A DNA stretch of 64,000 nt. Origin: Magnetococcales bacterium. GTDB lineage: Bacteria > Pseudomonadota > Magnetococcia > Magnetococcales > JADGCH01. This document shows positions 52,281-63,413 of the stretch, one piece after another (the first letter of the stretch is position 1; each line of letters begins with the position of its first letter). The position numbers were made by a program, and so were the translations under genes. Below the pieces are notes generated by a model that saw only the letters and a list, made by a program, of their open reading frames with translations, did not search any database and was not told where the DNA came from. The stretch spans positions 1 through 64,000 of the forward strand of contig JADGCH010000010.1 of NCBI GenBank assembly GCA_015229115.1. The letters are read 5' to 3'.

Positions 52281-54437
52281 ATGGATATACTGCATCGTAT
52301 CAGACTGAGAACCAAATTCATCATCATATTGTTATTGCCCTTATTGGGATTGGTGCTATTTGGTGTTGAGAGTGTACTGGAAAAACACCGCTTGGCCACC
52401 ACCATGCAGACCATGCAGTCTCTGGTTGATCTGGCCGTGCGAGTGGGTGCCATGGTGCACGAGATGCAGAAGGAACGCGGCATGACAGCGGGTTTCCTTG
52501 GCAGCAAGGGTAACCAGTTTCGCACTGAGTTGACACAACAGCGTGATGGGGTCGATCAGAAGATCACCAATGTGCGCCAGTTTGTGCAGCACGCTCTCGG
52601 TGGCATAGGCGATACCTCCGGTACTGCCCTGGCCAGTGGCCTGGCTGAAGCTGAACGCCACCTTGACCGTTTGAAGGAGATCCGACAGCGGGTCGATCGT
52701 CTGGATATCGTGCCAGCGGATGCCACCGGCTATTATACCCAGGGCATCGGTCTGTTTTTGACCAGTATGGCGGCCATCGGCAAGATGGCTGTCGGTGAGT
52801 TGTCTCCCATGGCCAATGGCTATCTCTATTTTCTGCTTGGCAAGGAGCGAGCCGGTATTGAGCGAGCTACACTGGCCAATGCCTTTTCACAGAACATTTT
52901 CCCCCCTGGCCTGTTTCAGCGTTTTGTCGCCATCATCAGTGAGCAGGATCTCTACCTGAACCTGTTCAAATCCCTGTCTCCGGCGGTGCAAACCAGTTTT
53001 TATCAGGATAAAATGCGTGACAGTGCGGTCCAGGAGGCGCAGCAGATGCGGGCTACGGCCCTTGCCAAAGGTGCCATGACGCTGAAACACAATCTGTTGC
53101 TTGAATTGCAGGGCCTAGTCGGATCATTCCGTGCTGGCCTGACCCCGGCCGCCGTTACGGAGCTGCATAACAAAGGGTTGGCAGTGGTCGAGAAATTGCT
53201 AACCCAGCAGGATGTGTCAGCCGACGACAAGCAGCGATTACAGACCCTACAAGGCTGGTTACAGCAGTCTGCTGCCACCGATACGGCGCCACTCGCCGAA
53301 GCCATGCAGGGATTGCAGCGTTCCTTTGCAGCGGGTCATTTTGGTATTGAGGCTCCAGTCTGGTTCAAGACGGTCACGCGCAAAATCGATCTGATGAAAG
53401 AGGTGGAGGATCTCATTGCTGGTGATCTGAAGGCACAGGCTGGCCATATGGAGAGTCAGGCTGCACGGGCTTTCTGGTTCTACCTGATTATGACTGCCCT
53501 GACAATTTGCGTTTCATTGCTGGCAGGTGTCGTCATGGTGCGCCAGATTCTGACACAGATTGGTGGTGAACCTGCCGACGTGATGGCCATTGCTGATCAA
53601 GTGGCTCGTGGTGATCTTTCGGTGCAGTTCGAATCGGGACGAGTGTCATCGGGTATTTATGGCTCCATCAAGAACATGGTGGAGCGGCTGCATGATACCA
53701 TCTCGGCGGTAGTCCAGATCAGCGAATTGGTGGTGGGGCAGGGTAACCAGCTCAATGGTACAGCCTTGATCGTTTCTGAAGGGGCCACCGAGCAGGCCGC
53801 GGCCATTGAGGAAACTTCATCGGCCATGGAGCAGATGAGTGGCAACATTGCTCAGACAACCGATAATGCCCAGTCCACCCAAACCATTGCCGCAGCCGCA
53901 GCGCGCGAGGCCATCGCCAGTGGTGAGGCGGTGCGTGAGGCGGTGCAGGCTATGACCCAAATTGCCGAGAAGATTGGCATCATTGAGGAAATCGCCCGTC
54001 AGACCAATCTGTTGGCACTCAATGCCGCCATTGAGGCAGCCCGGGCTGGGGAACACGGCAAGGGTTTTGCGGTCGTTGCGGCCGAAGTGCGCAAATTGGC
54101 TGAACGCAGTCAGACGGCAGCGCGTGAGATCAACACCATTTCTGGCAACAGCGTCGATGTCGCCAGTCGGGCAGGTGACCTGTTGGCTAAGCTGGTGCCG
54201 AATATCCAGCGCACCGCCCAGTTGATCCAGGAAATTGCTGTTGCTTCGCAGGAGCAGAGTCAGGGTGCCGAGCAGGTCAATCTGGCGATTCAGCAGCTGG
54301 ATCAGGTGATTCAGCGCAATGCCGCCTCGGCAGAGCAGATGTCTGCTTCAGCGGAGGATCTGTCGGGTCAGGCCAATCAATTGCAGCAACTGATGGCCTA
54401 TTTTCAGCTTGAATCGGGTCGTGGTCGTCGGACATGA
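52281..54437 (+). CDS. Methyl-accepting chemotaxis protein with NIT sensor domain
   Basis: A 718-residue chemoreceptor. TM1 ([15 protein letters not shown], residues 14-28), a periplasmic nitrate/nitrite-sensing (NIT) domain of about 350 residues with [21 protein letters not shown]2 (about 396-420, [19 protein letters not shown]), HAMP (about 421-475) and a cytoplasmic signalling domain whose tip [33 protein letters not shown] is canonical. No NWETF-like CheR pentapeptide at the end. It should direct swimming in response to nitrate, nitrite or another anion. ATGA overlap with the next gene is unusual for an MCP. Confidence 0.92.
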
Positions 54438-56404
54438 ACAACCTTTGGAGTGATCAGGAAGCCAGTCTGTGGCCGGGTGCTGTTGGGCAGCGTGTCTACA
54501 GTTCACGCCTGCTGGGTCGGGATAAGTCGCTGGTGTTGCACGGCGGAGGCAATACTTCGGTCAAGGCCAGTGTCAGGGATGTTTTTGGAGAGGAAACGGA
54601 AATCCTGTACGTCAAAGGCAGTGGCTGGGATCTGGAACGGATCGAAGCAGCTGGTTTTGCGCCTGTGCAACTGGCACATCTCAAACAGCTGGCCCAGCTA
54701 CCAGAGCTTGCCGACCCGGTGATGGTCAATGAACTGGTGACCCATACCGTCCAGGCTGGGGCGCCTGTTCCTTCCATCGAAGCGATCCTTCATGCCATCC
54801 TGCCTTATACCTACGTCGATCATACCCATGCCGATGCCATTGTGGCCATCACCAATACGGCAGACGGCGAGGCCAGAATCCGCGACCTTTATGGCGATGA
54901 GGTGGTCGTGATTCCTTATGTCATGCCTGGCTTTGATCTGGCACGGTTGTGTGGGCGGCTTTTTGCACGTCAGGCAGGGCCGCAGACCATTGGTATGGTG
55001 CTGATGAACCATGGCATTTTTTCTTTTGGGGCAACGGCCCAGCAGTCCTATGAACGGATGATCGATCTGGTTGGTCGTGCCGAGGCCTATCTACAGCGTC
55101 ATCATGCTTGGCAGGTGGTTTGCCCAGAGTCACCTCCTGTTGCTGTAGATCGTGTGACCATCGCCGATTTGCGTCGACAGATTTCTGATGTGGCCGGCTT
55201 TCCGATGATCATGGCACGGCATAGCGATGCCGATTCCCTGGCTTTTGCCCGGCGTTTGGATGTGGCGGTGGTGGCACAACAGGGACCGGCAACGCCCGAT
55301 CATGTGATTCGCACCAAGCGGCTGCCCATGATTGGGCGTGATGTAGCGGCCTACGCAGCAGCCTATCGCAATTATTCCGCTGCCCATGAGCCACTGGCCA
55401 AAGAGCGCAAGACCATGCTGGATGCCGCGCCACGGGTTGTGCTGGATCCTGATCTGGGTCTGTGTGCCCTGGGCAGGTCGGCCAAAGAGGCGGCCATCGT
55501 GGCTGACATCTACCACCACACCATGGAGATCATCAGCCGTTCTGAGAGGTTGGGAGGTTATCGGGCCTTGTCAGCCCAGCAGATTTTCGAGGTCGAATAC
55601 TGGGATCTGGAACAGGCTAAATTACGCAAGTCAGGGAAGTTGCCGCCGTTGTCTGGTGAGGTGGCGCTCGTCACTGGTGCAGCGTCCGGAATCGGCAAGG
55701 CCTGTGTAGCTTCCCTGCTGGCGCGGGGGGCCGCCGTGGTAGGATTGGACATCAATCCATCGGTGGTGAGCTTGCACCAGAGACCGGATTACCTGGGTCT
55801 GGTCTGTGATGTCACCGCTGAGCAGCAGCTTCAGCAGGCGTTGTCGGCAACCACTGACGCCTTCGGTGGTCTTGACATGCTGATCCTGAATGCCGGCATC
55901 TTTCCTGGCGGCTGTCGTATTGAGAACACCCGTATGGAGGAGTGGCATCAAGTCATGCAAATCAACCTCCATGCCAATCTGTTGTTGATGCGGGAGACCT
56001 ATCCGCTGTTGAAGCTGGCGCCACGTCATGGCCGGGTGGTGATCATTGGCTCGAAAAATGTGCCTGCCCCAGGTCCTGGGGCGGCGTCCTATTCGGCTTC
56101 CAAGGCAGCGTTGAATCAGCTGGCACGGGTGGCAGCCTTGGAGTGGGGAGGAGAGGGAATCCGTATCAATTCGCTGCACCCGAATGCCGTCTTCGACACG
56201 GCCATCTGGAGCGAACAGGTGTTGCAGTCGCGAGCCAGTCATTATGGCTTGACCGTTGATACCTACAAGAAGAATAATGTCTTAAAAGTCGAGGTGACCA
56301 GTCACGATGTTGCTGAACTGGCGGCTGAAATGTGTGGACCCCTGTTTGCCAAGACGACAGGGGCGCAACTGGCCGTCGATGGCGGCAATGACCGGGTGAT
56401 TTAG
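54434..56404 (+). CDS. Bifunctional class II aldolase / short-chain dehydrogenase
   Basis: A 656-residue two-domain protein. The N-terminal half (1-370) is a zinc class II aldolase/adducin domain with [18 protein letters not shown] (metal His pair) and MNHGIFSFG. The C-terminal half (about 410-656) is an SDR with TGAASGIG (NAD site), LNAGIFPGG and [13 protein letters not shown] (catalytic Tyr-Lys). This is the RhaD/RhaL-YuxG fusion type, in which rhamnulose-1-phosphate or a similar sugar phosphate is cleaved and lactaldehyde oxidised. No kinase or isomerase for such a pathway is near; the substrate is therefore open. Translationally coupled to the chemoreceptor gene. Confidence 0.88.
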
Positions 56405-56444: not shown

Positions 56445-59372
56445 ATGCTGCCTGAACACCCGCATCGCGAGCGGTTCCTGCCCTTGTTTGATCATGTGCG
56501 CTGTTTTGGTGACCTGGAGCAGCGTATTACCCTGCTACCCAGTGTTACTGACCAGCAAGCTGCTTTTGAAATCTTTTTCATGGCTTTTTGTGCTGTTCAA
56601 CGTGTGCGGTTGGTGAAGGATGTCTGGCCCCTGACGTTGGCACCGACCTCGATACGGCAACGGTTGCCAGAGGCCTTTGCTGCCGATCTACCTATACAGT
56701 GTGTGTGGGAGTTGCCGGGCGGGTCGCTGGGGGTGGGCTGGTTGTCATTCCGACCGCACCGCGAGGCTTTGGGGCGCAAGGAAGCGCAAGTCTTCCTAGC
56801 AGCAACCCAGTTATGGCCGCAGCGGGCCTGTTGGACCAATAGTGACACATTGCCATCCATGCTGGAGCGCCAGCACGATTTGTGGATGCTGCGTGGCAGC
56901 GATTTTGACCGCCTTGATGAGCGTGATCTAAAGCAGATGCGGCGCTGGTTGTCCGGAGCTGGGTTGCTGACAGACCGCTTGGTGTTATCGCGACAGCAAC
57001 AGTCGCTGTGTCACCAGGTCATGGCGCCACTCAAAAAAGATGGACGCGTGACGGTAGTCCCTGCAGTTGGTATGGATTTCCATGCCTGTTTGTTGCATCT
57101 GTTGGAATTGATGGGATCGCAGCAGTCGATCCTTTGTCTGTTACCCTCTCATGGACATATTCAGCAGTTATTGTGGTACTGGAATCGGCATGCCTCTTGG
57201 TCGGCCCTGTCGGTCATGGTGTGCCAGCTGGACGGGACGCCCCGTCACAGTTGTGAGATGCCGGTGATACGGGAGCTGTCTTTGGCAGGAGAGCGACTGA
57301 CGCGTTTTCTGCAAGGTAAATTTCATGGTCACCGGGTCGTGATGACCACAATGAGATCCCTGACAGAGCTGATGACGGGGTTACAGGAATTGATGCCCGA
57401 TTTTGTCTTCGACTGGTCGGTTGCCTGCCAAGCTGAGCAGTTGCTGGGCGGGCGCGAGCATAACGCTGCCGCCGAGCTTTTCCTTTCTTCGTCACAGTTG
57501 TCGAAACGGCTGATAGAGTCTGGTATCCTGCGTCACCACGACTGGAGTGGCTACATGCGTTCGCAGCGTAACGAGCCGAAGGTCGTGTTCGATTGCAGCG
57601 ATCAGGAGCGCTATGGCCCCATAGTGCGGTTGACGGCCGACCGGTTACGATCGATCCGGGTTGTTCTGGTGCTGATGACTCCGGACAGGTTATCCCATCC
57701 TGATGTTGGTTTACGACAAGTCGGATGGCAGGTCATGGGTCATGCCATGCGCCGTTACCAAGTACAAAGGCTGGTGGTCTTGAGTGATCAGGAACCGACC
57801 GCAGGGCCGGATGACGTAGCCTCACGGACACAGATGGTGGTGGACACGCGCGATCGTGCTAGCGTGCGTCAAACGGTTTTTGAGCGGTTCAGTCAAACCA
57901 GTGGACCGGTATTGCTCTGGATTCATGGTCGAGTTGGTCAGGCTATCGATTTTTTGCTGACACCGGTCGAAGCCGATATGGTGGTTGTGTTGCAACAGAA
58001 TCCGGATCAGCACGATCTGATGGCAGCAACCCAGCTGCTGGCTAGACCTTCGGTCCAACCTGCCCATGCGGATAGTGGGGCAGGGGCAGCTTGGTTGCTG
58101 ATACCGGTTCTGGTGCAAAAACAGGCTGGTATAGCGACACGTGATGGATTGGAGCAGGCTGACTTCACGCCTTTCTGGCAGGCTTTGGCGGTACTGGTTG
58201 AGCAGGATGAGAGTTTACGAAACATCATTCTGTCACAACGCGTGGACATGGGACGTACGGGTCAAAGCGACAAGCGGTTGTTATTGGAGCGTATTCGTCT
58301 ATTGGCACAGCCAGAATGGGCTGGCATTTTGCCGGAGTGGATGACCGATCAGTGTATTGCCCGTTTCAGTACCGCTTGGGAACACCATTTCGGTCTGTTG
58401 CAGCGTTTCCATCAGCAGCATGGCCATTGCCATGTGTCGCTGATGCAGGATGAGCAGGCCACCATTCTGGCAGACTGGCTTCAGGAGCAGCGCCAAAAGG
58501 CCTTACGGGGACGGTTGCCGGATGATCAGAAACAACAGCTGTCATCGATGGGTGTGGCCATGGATAGCCGGATGGCCGAGTGGGAGGCCATGCTTTGGCG
58601 TCTGACTGCTTTTTACCATCAACATCAGCATGTGGTTGTACCGAAGAATTGGCCAGATGATAGCCTGTTACCGTTCTGGATCGAAACCCAGCGCCGTTTG
58701 CGCAAAAGGGGGCAGCTCAGTGAGCAACAGATAGCCCGTCTTGACCAGTTGGGTTTTTTGTGGGACACTCAGGACGTTTACTGGGAGGAGATGTTTGGGA
58801 CTTTAGCCGAATTCAGGGCCTTGCAAGGGCACTGCAATGTGCCTGACAGTTGGTCGGGTCATCCCGATTTAGCTTGGTGGGTGACGGCTCAGCGCAAAGC
58901 CAAAGCCAGCGGCGCACTTGATCCGGAACGGGCTAGGCGGCTGGGTCAGCTTGGTATGATCTGGGATGGAGACGAGGCTTTCTGGCTGCAGATGGTGGCC
59001 GATTTCCGTCAGTTTTACGGCCGTTTCAATCATGGCATGGTCCCAAAAGGATGGCACGAGAACCCGAAGCTAGCGCAGTGGCTGGCAGCGCAGCGGGCTG
59101 CCGTCAACAAGGGCCTGTTGTCGCAAGAGCGATTGGCCACTTTGCAGAGTTGCGGATTTGTCTCAGAACCTAAACAGGTATTGCTCGAAGAGATGTTCTA
59201 CGCCCTGGAACAGTTCCGCAGTCGTTTTGGTCATTGTGACGTGCCATTGCACTGGCCTGATAACCCGGAATTGGGCTTATGGGTGGCTAGTCAAAGACAG
59301 CGACGTATTCGCAATGAACTGGAGCCAGAACGGGTTGGCCGGCTTGATGCCATGGGGTTTAAGTGGGTGTGA
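56445..59372 (+). CDS. Helicase-like protein with degenerate motor and five helicase-associated (HA) repeats
   Basis: A 975-residue protein. Residues about 190-600 align in outline with SF2 DEAD/DEAH helicases of the HA-domain group: LSRQQQSLCHQVMAPLKKDG, VVPAVGMDF where AATGTGKT would be expected (near 205), ILCLLPSHGHIQQLLW, VVMTTMRSLTEL, and FVFDWSVACQAEQLLGG where the FDEAHR motif should be (near 320). The P-loop lysine and DEAH acids are absent. Residues 644-974 hold five HA repeats of about 65 residues, each with W-F-x(2)HGHC/VP and a WV/L-xxQR, later L-xxLGF-W pattern. The open frame is intact, so loss of ATPase appears tolerated or selected. Likely nucleic acid binding; role unknown. 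Confidence 0.75.
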   Translation: MLPEHPHRERFLPLFDHVRCFGDLEQRITLLPSVTDQQAAFEIFFMAFCAVQRVRLVKDVWPLTLAPTSIRQRLPEAFAADLPIQCVWELPGGSLGVGWLSFRPHREALGRKEAQVFLAATQLWPQRACWTNSDTLPSMLERQHDLWMLRGSDFDRLDERDLKQMRRWLSGAGLLTDRLVLSRQQQSLCHQVMAPLKKDGRVTVVPAVGMDFHACLLHLLELMGSQQSILCLLPSHGHIQQLLWYWNRHASWSALSVMVCQLDGTPRHSCEMPVIRELSLAGERLTRFLQGKFHGHRVVMTTMRSLTELMTGLQELMPDFVFDWSVACQAEQLLGGREHNAAAELFLSSSQLSKRLIESGILRHHDWSGYMRSQRNEPKVVFDCSDQERYGPIVRLTADRLRSIRVVLVLMTPDRLSHPDVGLRQVGWQVMGHAMRRYQVQRLVVLSDQEPTAGPDDVASRTQMVVDTRDRASVRQTVFERFSQTSGPVLLWIHGRVGQAIDFLLTPVEADMVVVLQQNPDQHDLMAATQLLARPSVQPAHADSGAGAAWLLIPVLVQKQAGIATRDGLEQADFTPFWQALAVLVEQDESLRNIILSQRVDMGRTGQSDKRLLLERIRLLAQPEWAGILPEWMTDQCIARFSTAWEHHFGLLQRFHQQHGHCHVSLMQDEQATILADWLQEQRQKALRGRLPDDQKQQLSSMGVAMDSRMAEWEAMLWRLTAFYHQHQHVVVPKNWPDDSLLPFWIETQRRLRKRGQLSEQQIARLDQLGFLWDTQDVYWEEMFGTLAEFRALQGHCNVPDSWSGHPDLAWWVTAQRKAKASGALDPERARRLGQLGMIWDGDEAFWLQMVADFRQFYGRFNHGMVPKGWHENPKLAQWLAAQRAAVNKGLLSQERLATLQSCGFVSEPKQVLLEEMFYALEQFRSRFGHCDVPLHWPDNPELGLWVASQRQRRIRNELEPERVGRLDAMGFKWV

Positions 59373-59397: not shown

Positions 59398-60129
59398 ATG
59401 GATAATGTTAATATAGTAAAAATCTCTAACGGCATAAAAGATTTTGATTTCTTTTATAAACAGCTTGGTTCTCGTGCCGTATTGGGACATATTTTCAGTG
59501 GTGAGCCCTATCCTGTTCTGCCTTTTGTCAAAAAAGAGCATGTTAGGACAATAGTGGATATTGGTGCCCATATTGGGGAGGCGGCTTTTTTCTTTCATTT
59601 TATATATCCAGGAGCTAATATATTTTCATTCGAGCCAGATCCTGAGTCATTTGGTTTGTTAATGCGTAATGTTGGGCAATTGGGTAAAGTCCGTTCCTTT
59701 CACATGGGCTGTTTTGACTGTGATAAGGAAGTCGCTTTCTTTAAAAGCATGGAATTTGGGTCTGTAGGGAACTCCATTCATATCAAGCCCAATATGACGC
59801 CTTCATGTATGGTGCAGTTAAGAGATACAGCGACCGTTCTGAAAGAATTAGCTGTTCCACAGTCTGTTGATATCATGAAGATTGATACGGAGGGTTGTGA
59901 GGTAGCAGTACTGAATTCTCTGGTCAAGGGAGGGTATCGGTCCAGATTGGTTTATATTGAGCATCATTCGGAGCGGGACTGTCATGATATTCATAAAATC
60001 CTGTTTCCGACCCATGTTCTGTGGCAATCATCTTCTATAGGTTGTGATCATGGAGTGCCGGGAGAATTACTCTATATCGACCGTCAATATCTTTCAGATT
60101 TAGCTACCCATACCGACCAAGGTGGCTAG
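59398..60129 (+). CDS. FkbM family methyltransferase
   Basis: A 243-residue SAM-dependent methyltransferase: DIGAHIGEAAFFFHF (SAM motif I), FSFEPDPESF, and IMKIDTEGCEVAVL are the FkbM hallmarks. The family O-methylates sugars or other small molecules, often in glycan clusters. Base composition is clearly more AT-rich than the genes on either side, suggesting acquisition. Followed two bases later by a large glycosyltransferase gene, which supports a glycan-modifying role. Confidence 0.88.
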   Translation: MDNVNIVKISNGIKDFDFFYKQLGSRAVLGHIFSGEPYPVLPFVKKEHVRTIVDIGAHIGEAAFFFHFIYPGANIFSFEPDPESFGLLMRNVGQLGKVRSFHMGCFDCDKEVAFFKSMEFGSVGNSIHIKPNMTPSCMVQLRDTATVLKELAVPQSVDIMKIDTEGCEVAVLNSLVKGGYRSRLVYIEHHSERDCHDIHKILFPTHVLWQSSSIGCDHGVPGELLYIDRQYLSDLATHTDQGG

Positions 60130-60131
60130 GA

Positions 60132-63100
60132 GTGCAGTATCCGACCACAGAACAGCGCATTAAGGACGCATTGGCCCTAATGCAGCAGGATGTGCGATTT
60201 CCGGCTCCTGATGCTGTCCAAACCAATCAACCATCGGTTGTGCTTGATAAAAAGGTCATTATCAGCTGGCAGATCAGCCATATGTACGGTTGGGGTGTAT
60301 ATGGCTATCACTTGGCCATGACGCTATTGCGTCTGGGTGGGCAGCCAATTTTGTTGCATCCTCCTCATTATTTGATGGCTAATGCAGCCCAAGTTGCTGA
60401 TCTGAATCGTGTTGCAGCCCAGTCACAGCGTTATCTCGATTTTTTGCGCAATCATCCTGGGCAGGAACTTGATGCACCGGATGACATCCTGTTGATGTCC
60501 TGCGATTCCCTGTTTGACTTCAAAAACAACCGCATCAGAAGCGGACGCGATATAGGTATCGCTTTCTTCGACCGTATTCCCCTGCCACCGGAAAATGTGC
60601 GCAAGGCGCAGGATGTGCCGCTGATCATCACCGGTTCGGCTTGGAATGAGCGGGTTCTTAGAGACCGTTATCATCTTGCCAATGTCAAGACCATTATCCA
60701 GGGAGTAGATACAGCGATCTTCCATCCTGCAGAAAAAAAGAACCGGCTGTTGCCGGAACGGTTCGTCATTTTCAGTGGCTGCAAACTGGAATACCGCAAG
60801 GGTCAAGATATCGTCATGGAGGCGTTCAAACGGTTTCATGGCCGTCATCCGGATGCCTTTCTGTTAACGACATGGCATAATCACTGGATTAACGATCCAT
60901 CAAGCCGCGTTCAATACGCCTTTCCATCGGGCTATGTCACCGATTTGCCTGATGACACCGATATTAACCCGTGGCTCGGGCGCTACTTGCCGGCAGGTTC
61001 TTTTTATGATACCGGCATGATTCCCAATCCGGTGATCCCCCAGTTATTGCATGAATGTGACGCCGCCATTTTGCCCAGTCGTTGTGAAGGGGGCACCAAT
61101 CTGGTCGCCATGGAGTGCATGGCGGCAGGGGTACCCCTGATCCTGTCGGCCAATACTGGTCATCTCGACCTGATTGCACCTGATCGATGCTATCCTGTCA
61201 TGACACAAAAGCCGGTCAACGATCACCATGGTGTCTTGTTGCCAGACTGGGGTGAGTCGTCTGTCGATGAGATTGTAGAACGTTTGGAGGATATCTATCA
61301 AAATCGTGCCAGAGCCCGAGCCAAGGCTCAGAAGGGCTGGCAGTTTATCCGCCAGTTTTCATGGCATAATCAATGTACCGAGGTTTTGCAGGCAGTCCAT
61401 CATTCAGCTGTGACGCCACCAGTTTCTGCAACAGCTGTTGCGAAAGAGACGGCTCCCACTCCTACTGCTGCACAATGGCTGCTGCAGGGTGAACAGTTGG
61501 TGTCCCGTGGGGATCATGGGGCGGCCAGAAGTTGTTATCAGCGTGCTTTGGCGATCGACCAGCACTGCTCTGAAGCTTGGAATAACTTGGGGTTGCTGTT
61601 GATGTCGCAGCAGGACTTTAACGCTGCTGTGCCCTATTTTGAGCAGGCCATTGCGCTCAGGTTGTCTAATGTGTTGGCCCACAACAACTTGGCATCGGCT
61701 TTCGTCAAACTGGGGTTATTGCCCAAGGCCATTGTCGAATACGAATATGCGCTGGTGCTGCGTCCCGACCAAGCTATTCGCAATAACCTGATCCAGGCCC
61801 TGCTGGCGCTGGGCAATCGTTACCATGAGCAGGATCGCATTGAAGAGGCCGACCGGTGTTATCGTCGCACCGTGGCACTCAACCCGGATCATAGCGAGGC
61901 ACGCACCCAGCTGGGCATTCTGGCGTTGGCGGAGGGTCGTCTTACCGAGGCAGCCGATCACTGTCGTGTAGCGGCCCAGTCATTCGGTCTGACTGCGGCC
62001 GATCTGCAACGGCGCGGCGTTGAAAGTTATCATCAGGGACGGATACTGGAAGCAACGGCTTGGTTGATTCAGACGCTGGTCATGCAACCGCAGCATCCTG
62101 GCCACTACAATAATTTGGGACTCATCCTGGCACAGCTGGGCTACCATGGTCAGGCCGTCAAATATTACGAGCAGGCACTGCGTATCAAGCCAGAGAGCAA
62201 TAGTTACAATAATCTTGGCACTTCGTTGCACCGGTTGGGGCGGATGAGGGAGTCGGAAGCCTGTTTCAAGCAGGCCATCGCCATGCAGCCCGATTATGCC
62301 CAGGCCCATCACAACCTGGGATTTAATCTGGCGGCACAGTACCGTATTCCGGAATCAGCAGCCTCTTTTGCTGAAGCCTTTCGACTGGTTCCGGGTGACC
62401 ATACCGCCATGCTCTACCATATGCTGCAGGGCGATGCCTGGTTAGCAGAAGGGCGCTATCGGGAAGGCTGGAAGGAGCTGACTTGGTTTTGGTATCAGAG
62501 GCAGTACAGGAGATCGTTATTCTCGGATGATTTGATCGTCAACCAGGAGCCGTGGAATGGTACCGATGATCTTGCTGGCAAACACCTGCTGGTTGTGACG
62601 GGTTGGGAAGGGCTGGGAGATGCCATTCAGCTGGTCCGCTACGTGCCACAACTGGCCAAGGTGTGCGGTGCCGTCATCACGTTACTGTGTCAGCCGGTGT
62701 TGGTTCCCTTGTTTGCTACTGTCGCACAGGTCCATGCTGTCAAGCCGAGGGAAGAGTCCTGGCAGTCGATGTCCTTTGATGCCTACGTGCCTTTGATTGC
62801 GTTGCCGACCATTCTCGATATCCCCTTTCCGTTCCTGGACGTCGATCCTGTAACACGTGGCAAGCCTTATTTAACCGTTATGGCAGATGTACGGGAGCAC
62901 TGGCAACGCCGATTGCAGCCCTGTTTAGCAGAACCGGGCCTCAAGGTTGGCCTATGTTGGGCTGGTGGCGATAAGACGCCATGGGGACGTGCACGTCACA
63001 TCGAACATGTCGAGAAATTATGGCCTTTGTTTGGGGTATCCAACGTCAAGTTTTATAGTTTCCAGATGGATGCTGACGATCAAACGCTGCGACGATTCCC

Positions 63101-63413
63101 TCCTGGCAGGTTGCACTCGTTCGGTTCTGATCTGAAAGGATTTATGAACACGGCTGCCATTCTATCCCAGATGGACCTGCTAATCACCATCGACAGCGCC
63201 ATTACCCATTTGGCTGGCGCTATTGGATTTCCTACCTGGTTGTTGCTGCCAGCTGTAACCGACTACCGTTGGTTGTGTGATCGGGCTGATTCTCCTTGGT
63301 ACTCGTCACTGCGGCTATTCCGCCAGAGAGAAGCAGGGGACTGGGATGGGGTCATTGAGCGGGTTGTGGTGGCGTTACAGCAGATGGCATCAGCATCTGT
63401 TCAATCGATGTGA
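60132..63413 (+). CDS. Glycosyltransferase-TPR-glycosyltransferase fusion
   Basis: A 1093-residue protein in three parts. Residues about 38-430: a GT4-type (GT-B) glycosyltransferase with SGCKLEYRKGQDI and LPSRCEGGTNLVAMECMAAGVPLI. Residues about 445-790: TPR repeats (AWNNLGLLLMSQQDFNAAV, HYNNLGLILAQLGYHGQAV, SYNNLGTSLHRLGRMRESE and others). Residues about 820-1085: a second GT-B-like domain (GWEGLGDAIQLVRYVPQL, LLITIDSAITHLAGAIGFPTWLLLP) related to GT9/TPR-linked transferases. Likely acts on a protein or lipid glycan. The start is GTG at 60132 (no good ribosome site); ATG at 60180 is the alternative. Confidence 0.85.
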   Translation: MQYPTTEQRIKDALALMQQDVRFPAPDAVQTNQPSVVLDKKVIISWQISHMYGWGVYGYHLAMTLLRLGGQPILLHPPHYLMANAAQVADLNRVAAQSQRYLDFLRNHPGQELDAPDDILLMSCDSLFDFKNNRIRSGRDIGIAFFDRIPLPPENVRKAQDVPLIITGSAWNERVLRDRYHLANVKTIIQGVDTAIFHPAEKKNRLLPERFVIFSGCKLEYRKGQDIVMEAFKRFHGRHPDAFLLTTWHNHWINDPSSRVQYAFPSGYVTDLPDDTDINPWLGRYLPAGSFYDTGMIPNPVIPQLLHECDAAILPSRCEGGTNLVAMECMAAGVPLILSANTGHLDLIAPDRCYPVMTQKPVNDHHGVLLPDWGESSVDEIVERLEDIYQNRARARAKAQKGWQFIRQFSWHNQCTEVLQAVHHSAVTPPVSATAVAKETAPTPTAAQWLLQGEQLVSRGDHGAARSCYQRALAIDQHCSEAWNNLGLLLMSQQDFNAAVPYFEQAIALRLSNVLAHNNLASAFVKLGLLPKAIVEYEYALVLRPDQAIRNNLIQALLALGNRYHEQDRIEEADRCYRRTVALNPDHSEARTQLGILALAEGRLTEAADHCRVAAQSFGLTAADLQRRGVESYHQGRILEATAWLIQTLVMQPQHPGHYNNLGLILAQLGYHGQAVKYYEQALRIKPESNSYNNLGTSLHRLGRMRESEACFKQAIAMQPDYAQAHHNLGFNLAAQYRIPESAASFAEAFRLVPGDHTAMLYHMLQGDAWLAEGRYREGWKELTWFWYQRQYRRSLFSDDLIVNQEPWNGTDDLAGKHLLVVTGWEGLGDAIQLVRYVPQLAKVCGAVITLLCQPVLVPLFATVAQVHAVKPREESWQSMSFDAYVPLIALPTILDIPFPFLDVDPVTRGKPYLTVMADVREHWQRRLQPCLAEPGLKVGLCWAGGDKTPWGRARHIEHVEKLWPLFGVSNVKFYSFQMDADDQTLRRFPPGRLHSFGSDLKGFMNTAAILSQMDLLITIDSAITHLAGAIGFPTWLLLPAVTDYRWLCDRADSPWYSSLRLFRQREAGDWDGVIERVVVALQQMASASVQSM

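Follow-up and report, generated by a model that had tools for sequence, protein, structure and literature searches.

A predicted catalytically dead Type ISP-like nuclease-translocase with HA repeats is conserved across the Magnetococcales

Introduction

Why would a bacterial lineage keep a helicase-like protein that appears to have lost its ATP site? The question is raised by a gene in a 64,000-nucleotide stretch of DNA from a Magnetococcales bacterium, referred to here as the window. An earlier sequence-only reading had taken the gene product for a pseudo-helicase and suggested that it acts as a nucleic-acid-binding scaffold or as the regulator of an active paralogue. Sequence comparison and structure prediction establish the descent of the protein, its predicted fold, the loss of catalytic residues in 33 of 33 aligned members, purifying selection on the gene, a single HA protein per genome and a conserved placement behind an aldolase/dehydrogenase gene. 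Each element has precedents, among pseudohelicases, Type ISP enzymes and HA helicases, but their combination here turned up in none of our searches.

Results

An intact frame with five HA repeats

The gene lies on the forward strand at 56445–59372 and encodes 975 amino acids in a frame that is open throughout its 975 codons. Its ATG at 56445 is the start position in nearly all orthologues, and the intact frame and the conserved start exclude a misplaced start or a frameshift. All five of the HA repeats (PF03457) first read from the sequence score above the curated Pfam cut-off, with E-values of 3e-13 to 3e-18 for the single repeats and 1.4e-77 for the whole protein. The Pfam matches and a structural model place them at 58368–58556, 58575–58757, 58773–58958, 58974–59159 and 59187–59360 (forward strand, as are all features of the gene below). 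In the model a helical linker (aa 565–641; 58137–58367) precedes the array. The number of repeats varies from 5 to 13 across the family; genomes in which the gene is complete carry 8–13, against just five in the window protein.

The N-terminal half resembles Type ISP restriction enzymes

Pfam and NCBIfam scans assigned no family to the N-terminal half of the window protein and found no methyltransferase family anywhere in it; beyond the dead core there are just the HA repeats. A search with the window's protein sequence alone returned nothing usable, and the kinship to Type ISP enzymes is visible solely through a family profile and a fold search. The profile of the family's N-terminal half matches residues 58–656 of LlaBIII, which comprise the nuclease and ATPase, with an E-value of 8e-36, and matches LlaGI with an E-value of 4e-35. 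An AlphaFold2 model built from the family alignment (pLDDT 86.9, pTM 0.89) contains tandem RecA-like folds. The best Foldseek match of this model is LlaBIII (PDB 4xqk; E 7.5e-25, TM 0.68 by query length). A VIA-align superposition of the two has a Z-score of 23.6 over 568 residues, covering model residues 17 to 641. LlaGI without its nuclease scores 21.0 in the same comparison, and other SF2 motors 17.6 and below. The profile and structure alignments thus make both the nuclease-like and the motor parts recognisable. None of the PADLOC defence models matches the window protein; the ATPase part of one orthologue (L040) matches a restriction-methyltransferase model with an E-value of 4.6e-18.

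The predicted protein opens with a helical part (aa 1–55; 56445–56609), delimited by the model and the alignment. It is followed by a degenerate Mrr-like nuclease domain (aa 56–172; 56610–56960), assigned by profile and structure alignment. The first RecA-like domain (aa 178–400; 56976–57644) is defined by the model, the structure alignment and the motif table, and the second (aa 401–560; 57645–58124) by the model, the motif table and sequence identity. The order and fold of the Mrr-like nuclease, the SF2 ATPase and the start of the helical coupler are as in LlaBIII and LlaGI (PDB 4xqk, 5ffj). Unlike these enzymes, the window protein has lost every nuclease and ATPase catalytic residue that we examined, and it carries HA repeats but neither a methyltransferase nor a target recognition domain.

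The presence of RecA-like folds agrees with the idea of a pseudo-helicase, as do the lost ATP site and the purifying selection described below. The earlier label of an HA-type SF2 helicase is incomplete, since the N-terminal half appears to be a dead Type ISP-like nuclease and translocase. Among solved structures, the protein is closest to the Type ISP enzyme LlaBIII and not to a DEAH helicase. Sequence and model together identify the window protein as a putative double-dead nuclease-translocase with HA repeats.

Catalytic residues are lost across the family

The degenerate P-loop and DEAH region reported from the sequence hold up on comparison with live relatives. The Walker A site reads PAVGMDF, with F212 at the Lys position, and the motif I remnant PAVGMDFH (aa 206–213; 57060–57083) lacks both the Lys and the Thr. 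The motif II site reads ACQAEQ, and in its remnant CQAE (aa 328–331; 57426–57437) C328, Q329 and E331 replace D, E and H. The string FVFDWSVACQ, first taken for the DEAH region, comprises the strand leading into motif II and the first two motif II positions. In the nuclease QxK motif S101 stands where the catalytic Lys is expected, and motif VI is gone from the second RecA-like domain, the least conserved part of the protein.

The same residues are missing throughout the alignment. The Lys of motif I (GxGK(T/S)), the first Asp of motif II (DExH/D) and the catalytic nuclease Lys are each found in 0 of 33 members, and the Gln and first Arg of motif VI (QxxGRxxR) in 1 of 33 each. Live relatives retain the motif I Lys, motif II Asp, motif VI Gln and Arg and nuclease Lys. 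Framework residues persist (numbered as in the live enzyme): W256 and D599 in 31/33, G218 and T322 in 29/33 and G414 in 25/25. Some members have visible DEAH remnants, TDAHKLA (L042) and PDAHRTV (L040), which show that the family descends from an active DEAH form. Judged from the alignment, catalytic loss at both the ATP site and the nuclease extends across the family.

Could the protein still be an enzyme that binds ATP or performs nuclease chemistry through relocated residues? Some ATP- or metal-dependent enzymes do act with shifted residues, and in this family the second motif II position is D or E in 24/33 members, as is the nuclease Asp position in 23/33. Against this, the Lys and Thr of motif I, the first acid of motif II, the Gln and Arg of motif VI and the nuclease Lys are gone and no consistent replacement is seen, and we regard residual catalysis as very improbable.

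The gene is found across the order and is under purifying selection

Orthologues are present in 43–44 of 48 Magnetococcales genomes, the window's own included. A protein search of 61 genomes found relatives in 44, all among the order's 48, and none in the 13 genomes of the same phylum outside the order. One weak match (G003; E 3.4e-11) was upheld by the family profile at an E-value of 1e-48, and two scans of genome contigs with single proteins gave no confirmed relatives. Outside the order, HA matches occurred in only 4 genomes in a wider draw of 398 from the phylum, and phage records yielded one. A link to magnetosome genes is unsupported: MamA scores above its cut-off in most genomes of the order, the window's among them, and it occurs in genomes both with and without the dead gene.

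Selection was measured as Nei–Gojobori dN/dS on eleven pairs. Ratios range from 0.07 to 0.27 for the dead half and from 0.07 to 0.22 for the HA half where computable, with synonymous sites saturated in the most distant pairs. The four closest pairs (dS 0.13–1.1) give 0.14–0.26 for the dead half and 0.08–0.19 for the HA half. These values are far below the ratio near 1 that would mark decay, and purifying selection on the dead protein is strong. The uninterrupted 975 codons and this selection support the earlier view that the frame is maintained. Decay of a former restriction-type gene would account for the vanished catalytic motifs and the variable number of HA repeats (5 to 13), but frames are intact across the order, dN/dS stays at 0.07–0.27 and the operon position is retained. 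The dN/dS values and the order-wide conservation rule decay out.

No active HA paralogue of the dead protein was found

The suggestion that the protein regulates an active HA paralogue is not supported by a search for one. The window's genome contains no second HA protein, and the HA matches listed for the order's genomes all fall on the dead gene or on its contig-split pieces.

A complete Type ISP-like enzyme of 1677 amino acids is encoded in the same genome on another contig (C140; L157, 1707–6737). Its nuclease, ATPase and methyltransferase parts are complete, with the motifs GTGKT, DEAH and QAK; it has no HA repeats, and a PADLOC restriction-methyltransferase model matches it along its entire length. 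A partial relative is present in another genome (G041). The dead protein might in principle regulate such an intact restriction enzyme. With four candidates scored per genome, intact or partial Type ISP relatives were seen in at least two genomes of the order, whereas the dead protein is present in nearly all. The live relative is consequently not a constant partner, none of the HA matches listed for the order points to an HA-bearing paralogue, and regulation of an active relative is highly improbable.

Conservation at both ends fits a proposed scaffold or adaptor role

Identity averaged over all pairs reaches 0.43 in the N-terminal helices, compared with 0.36 in the nuclease-like domain, 0.29 and 0.21 in the first and second RecA-like domains, and 0.37–0.58 in the HA repeats. 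This gradient indicates constraint at both ends of the protein, weakest in the former motor. On balance we favour a non-catalytic scaffold or adaptor derived from a Type ISP-like enzyme. The starting point would be an Mrr nuclease joined to an SF2 DNA translocase, with an HA array in the C-terminal half in place of the methyltransferase. The nuclease Lys and the ATP-site residues would have been lost in an ancestor of the magnetotactic cocci (Magnetococcales), after which the protein was presumably retained in a non-catalytic role. The former motor may now serve as a rigid body within the scaffold or adaptor. Its working surfaces may lie at the N-terminal domain and in the HA array, where conservation is highest.

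For such surfaces a protein is a plausible partner and DNA or RNA a possible one, and we rank protein slightly higher since the array no longer has the positive charge of most other HA arrays. Per 100 residues, the net charge of the family's HA arrays is −0.9 on average, compared with +0.6 to +6.8 in the six other HA proteins on which this contrast rests.

The main competing explanation is that the HA array and dead core sit on DNA or RNA as a non-catalytic nucleic-acid binder. The protein might, for example, control the operon to which it belongs, or serve on DNA as a structural component in the way of RecC or Deinococcus PriA. The nearest relatives are DNA translocases, HA repeats are joined to live DNA-helicase-like proteins on plasmids, and the motif Ib Thr is retained in 29/33 members. 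There are also precedents, in that the pseudohelicase PriA retains DNA binding (PMC4504706) and RecC uses its dead nuclease domain to guide single-stranded DNA (PMC1185551). Other features speak against it. Most other HA arrays are basic, whereas those of this family are acidic or close to neutral. Just 11/33 members have retained the Arg position of motif V, the counterpart of Arg564 on the DNA path in LlaBIII (PMC7049714). The model of the family's HA array predicts three-helix repeats (pLDDT 90.5) and clearly matches only the HA structure 2kta (Z 7.3, 70/74 residues), and fold comparison found no known nucleic-acid-binding repeat. The charge of the array and the poorly kept motif V Arg lean away from simple DNA binding, on few comparisons, and we consider this explanation rather unlikely.

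The dead gene follows an aldolase/dehydrogenase gene

The gene 40 bp upstream, at 54434–56404 on the same strand, encodes a bifunctional aldolase/short-chain dehydrogenase (NF006196), and this neighbour is kept across the order. It lies on the same strand within 300 bp upstream in 33 of 40 testable genomes, the window included, commonly at 30–60 bp; in the remainder it is within 2.5 kb in 4 and elsewhere in 3. The zinc-site and SDR residues of these enzymes are apparently intact in nearly all. An LsrF-type aldolase (NF006081) is likewise found upstream, at 21 loci. The two genes downstream in the window, for an FkbM-type methyltransferase (59398–60129, forward strand, 25 bp from the dead gene) and a TPR/glycosyltransferase protein (60132–63413, forward strand), are not kept neighbours. 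Promoter and terminator scans around the dead gene returned no more than chance. Adjacency over about 12 families supports a shared operon; gene order is no proof of shared function.

Tentatively, and with less assurance than the scaffold or adaptor role itself, we propose that an ancestor of the magnetotactic cocci domesticated a restriction-type nuclease-translocase, which became a non-catalytic scaffold, present in single copy and acting together with the sugar aldolase/dehydrogenase operon. The aldolase and the dead gene co-occur in most genomes, and two (G009, G010) have the aldolase without the dead gene. In the sole other genome of the same genus (G001) the dead gene stands behind gmhA, not the aldolase.

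In subfamily, the window's aldolase/dehydrogenase differs from the enzymes of the order's other families (NF006194 in L037). It clusters with a genome from outside the order and still occupies the same place before the dead gene. At one locus (L041, 10227–12670) a 147-aa HEPN-like protein and a 667-aa ParA-like ATPase, both named by eye, lie between the aldolase and the dead gene and are possibly an inserted module.

Comparison with known systems

A literature search, with most subscription journals outside its scope, found no description of a dead Type ISP-like protein with HA repeats and no paper joining the helicase associated domain with Magnetococcus. If our account is correct, a restriction-type motor was inactivated across a whole lineage and then kept for a long time, which would be a rare and clear case in which a defence-type enzyme became a non-catalytic housekeeping protein. 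The dead protein would also help to reveal what HA repeats do, as the array persists here without a working helicase.

Three proteins are partial parallels. RecC, with helicase folds of the SF1 type, works as part of a known complex and has no sequence relation to the dead protein. Like the dead protein, it has a dead nuclease domain, of the PD-(D/E)xK type, that is reused non-catalytically within RecBCD (PMC1185551). The Deinococcus radiodurans PriA helicase is inactive throughout a bacterial lineage and nonetheless retained, but it belongs to another helicase family, keeps its role in replication restart and interacts with DnaB (PMC4504706). Utp25 is helicase-like, has been reported as a pseudohelicase and has a structural role in a complex (PMC9539457); unlike the dead protein, it acts in eukaryotic ribosome assembly and has no HA repeats.

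Closest in layout are the plasmid and actinobacterial HA-domain DEAD/DEAH helicases (PF03457), in which an SF2 core of the same type is followed by HA repeats. Among those that we examined, four retain motifs I, II, III, V and VI, whereas the family described here is dead, and three of the four have no nuclease domain in the frames read, whereas the dead family has one. An HA protein from a Rhodococcus megaplasmid (L076, 3306–6413), annotated as a DEAD/DEAH helicase, is itself degenerate, with GTGRT, VEAS and no nuclease Lys; by its motifs it is a second, separate case of an apparently dead nuclease-motor-HA protein. On a Pseudomonas plasmid (L077, 3960–9189), a live HA helicase lies directly ahead of an AAA ATPase gene and a partition gene of the ParB type, a context which hints that active HA helicases may serve in plasmid maintenance.
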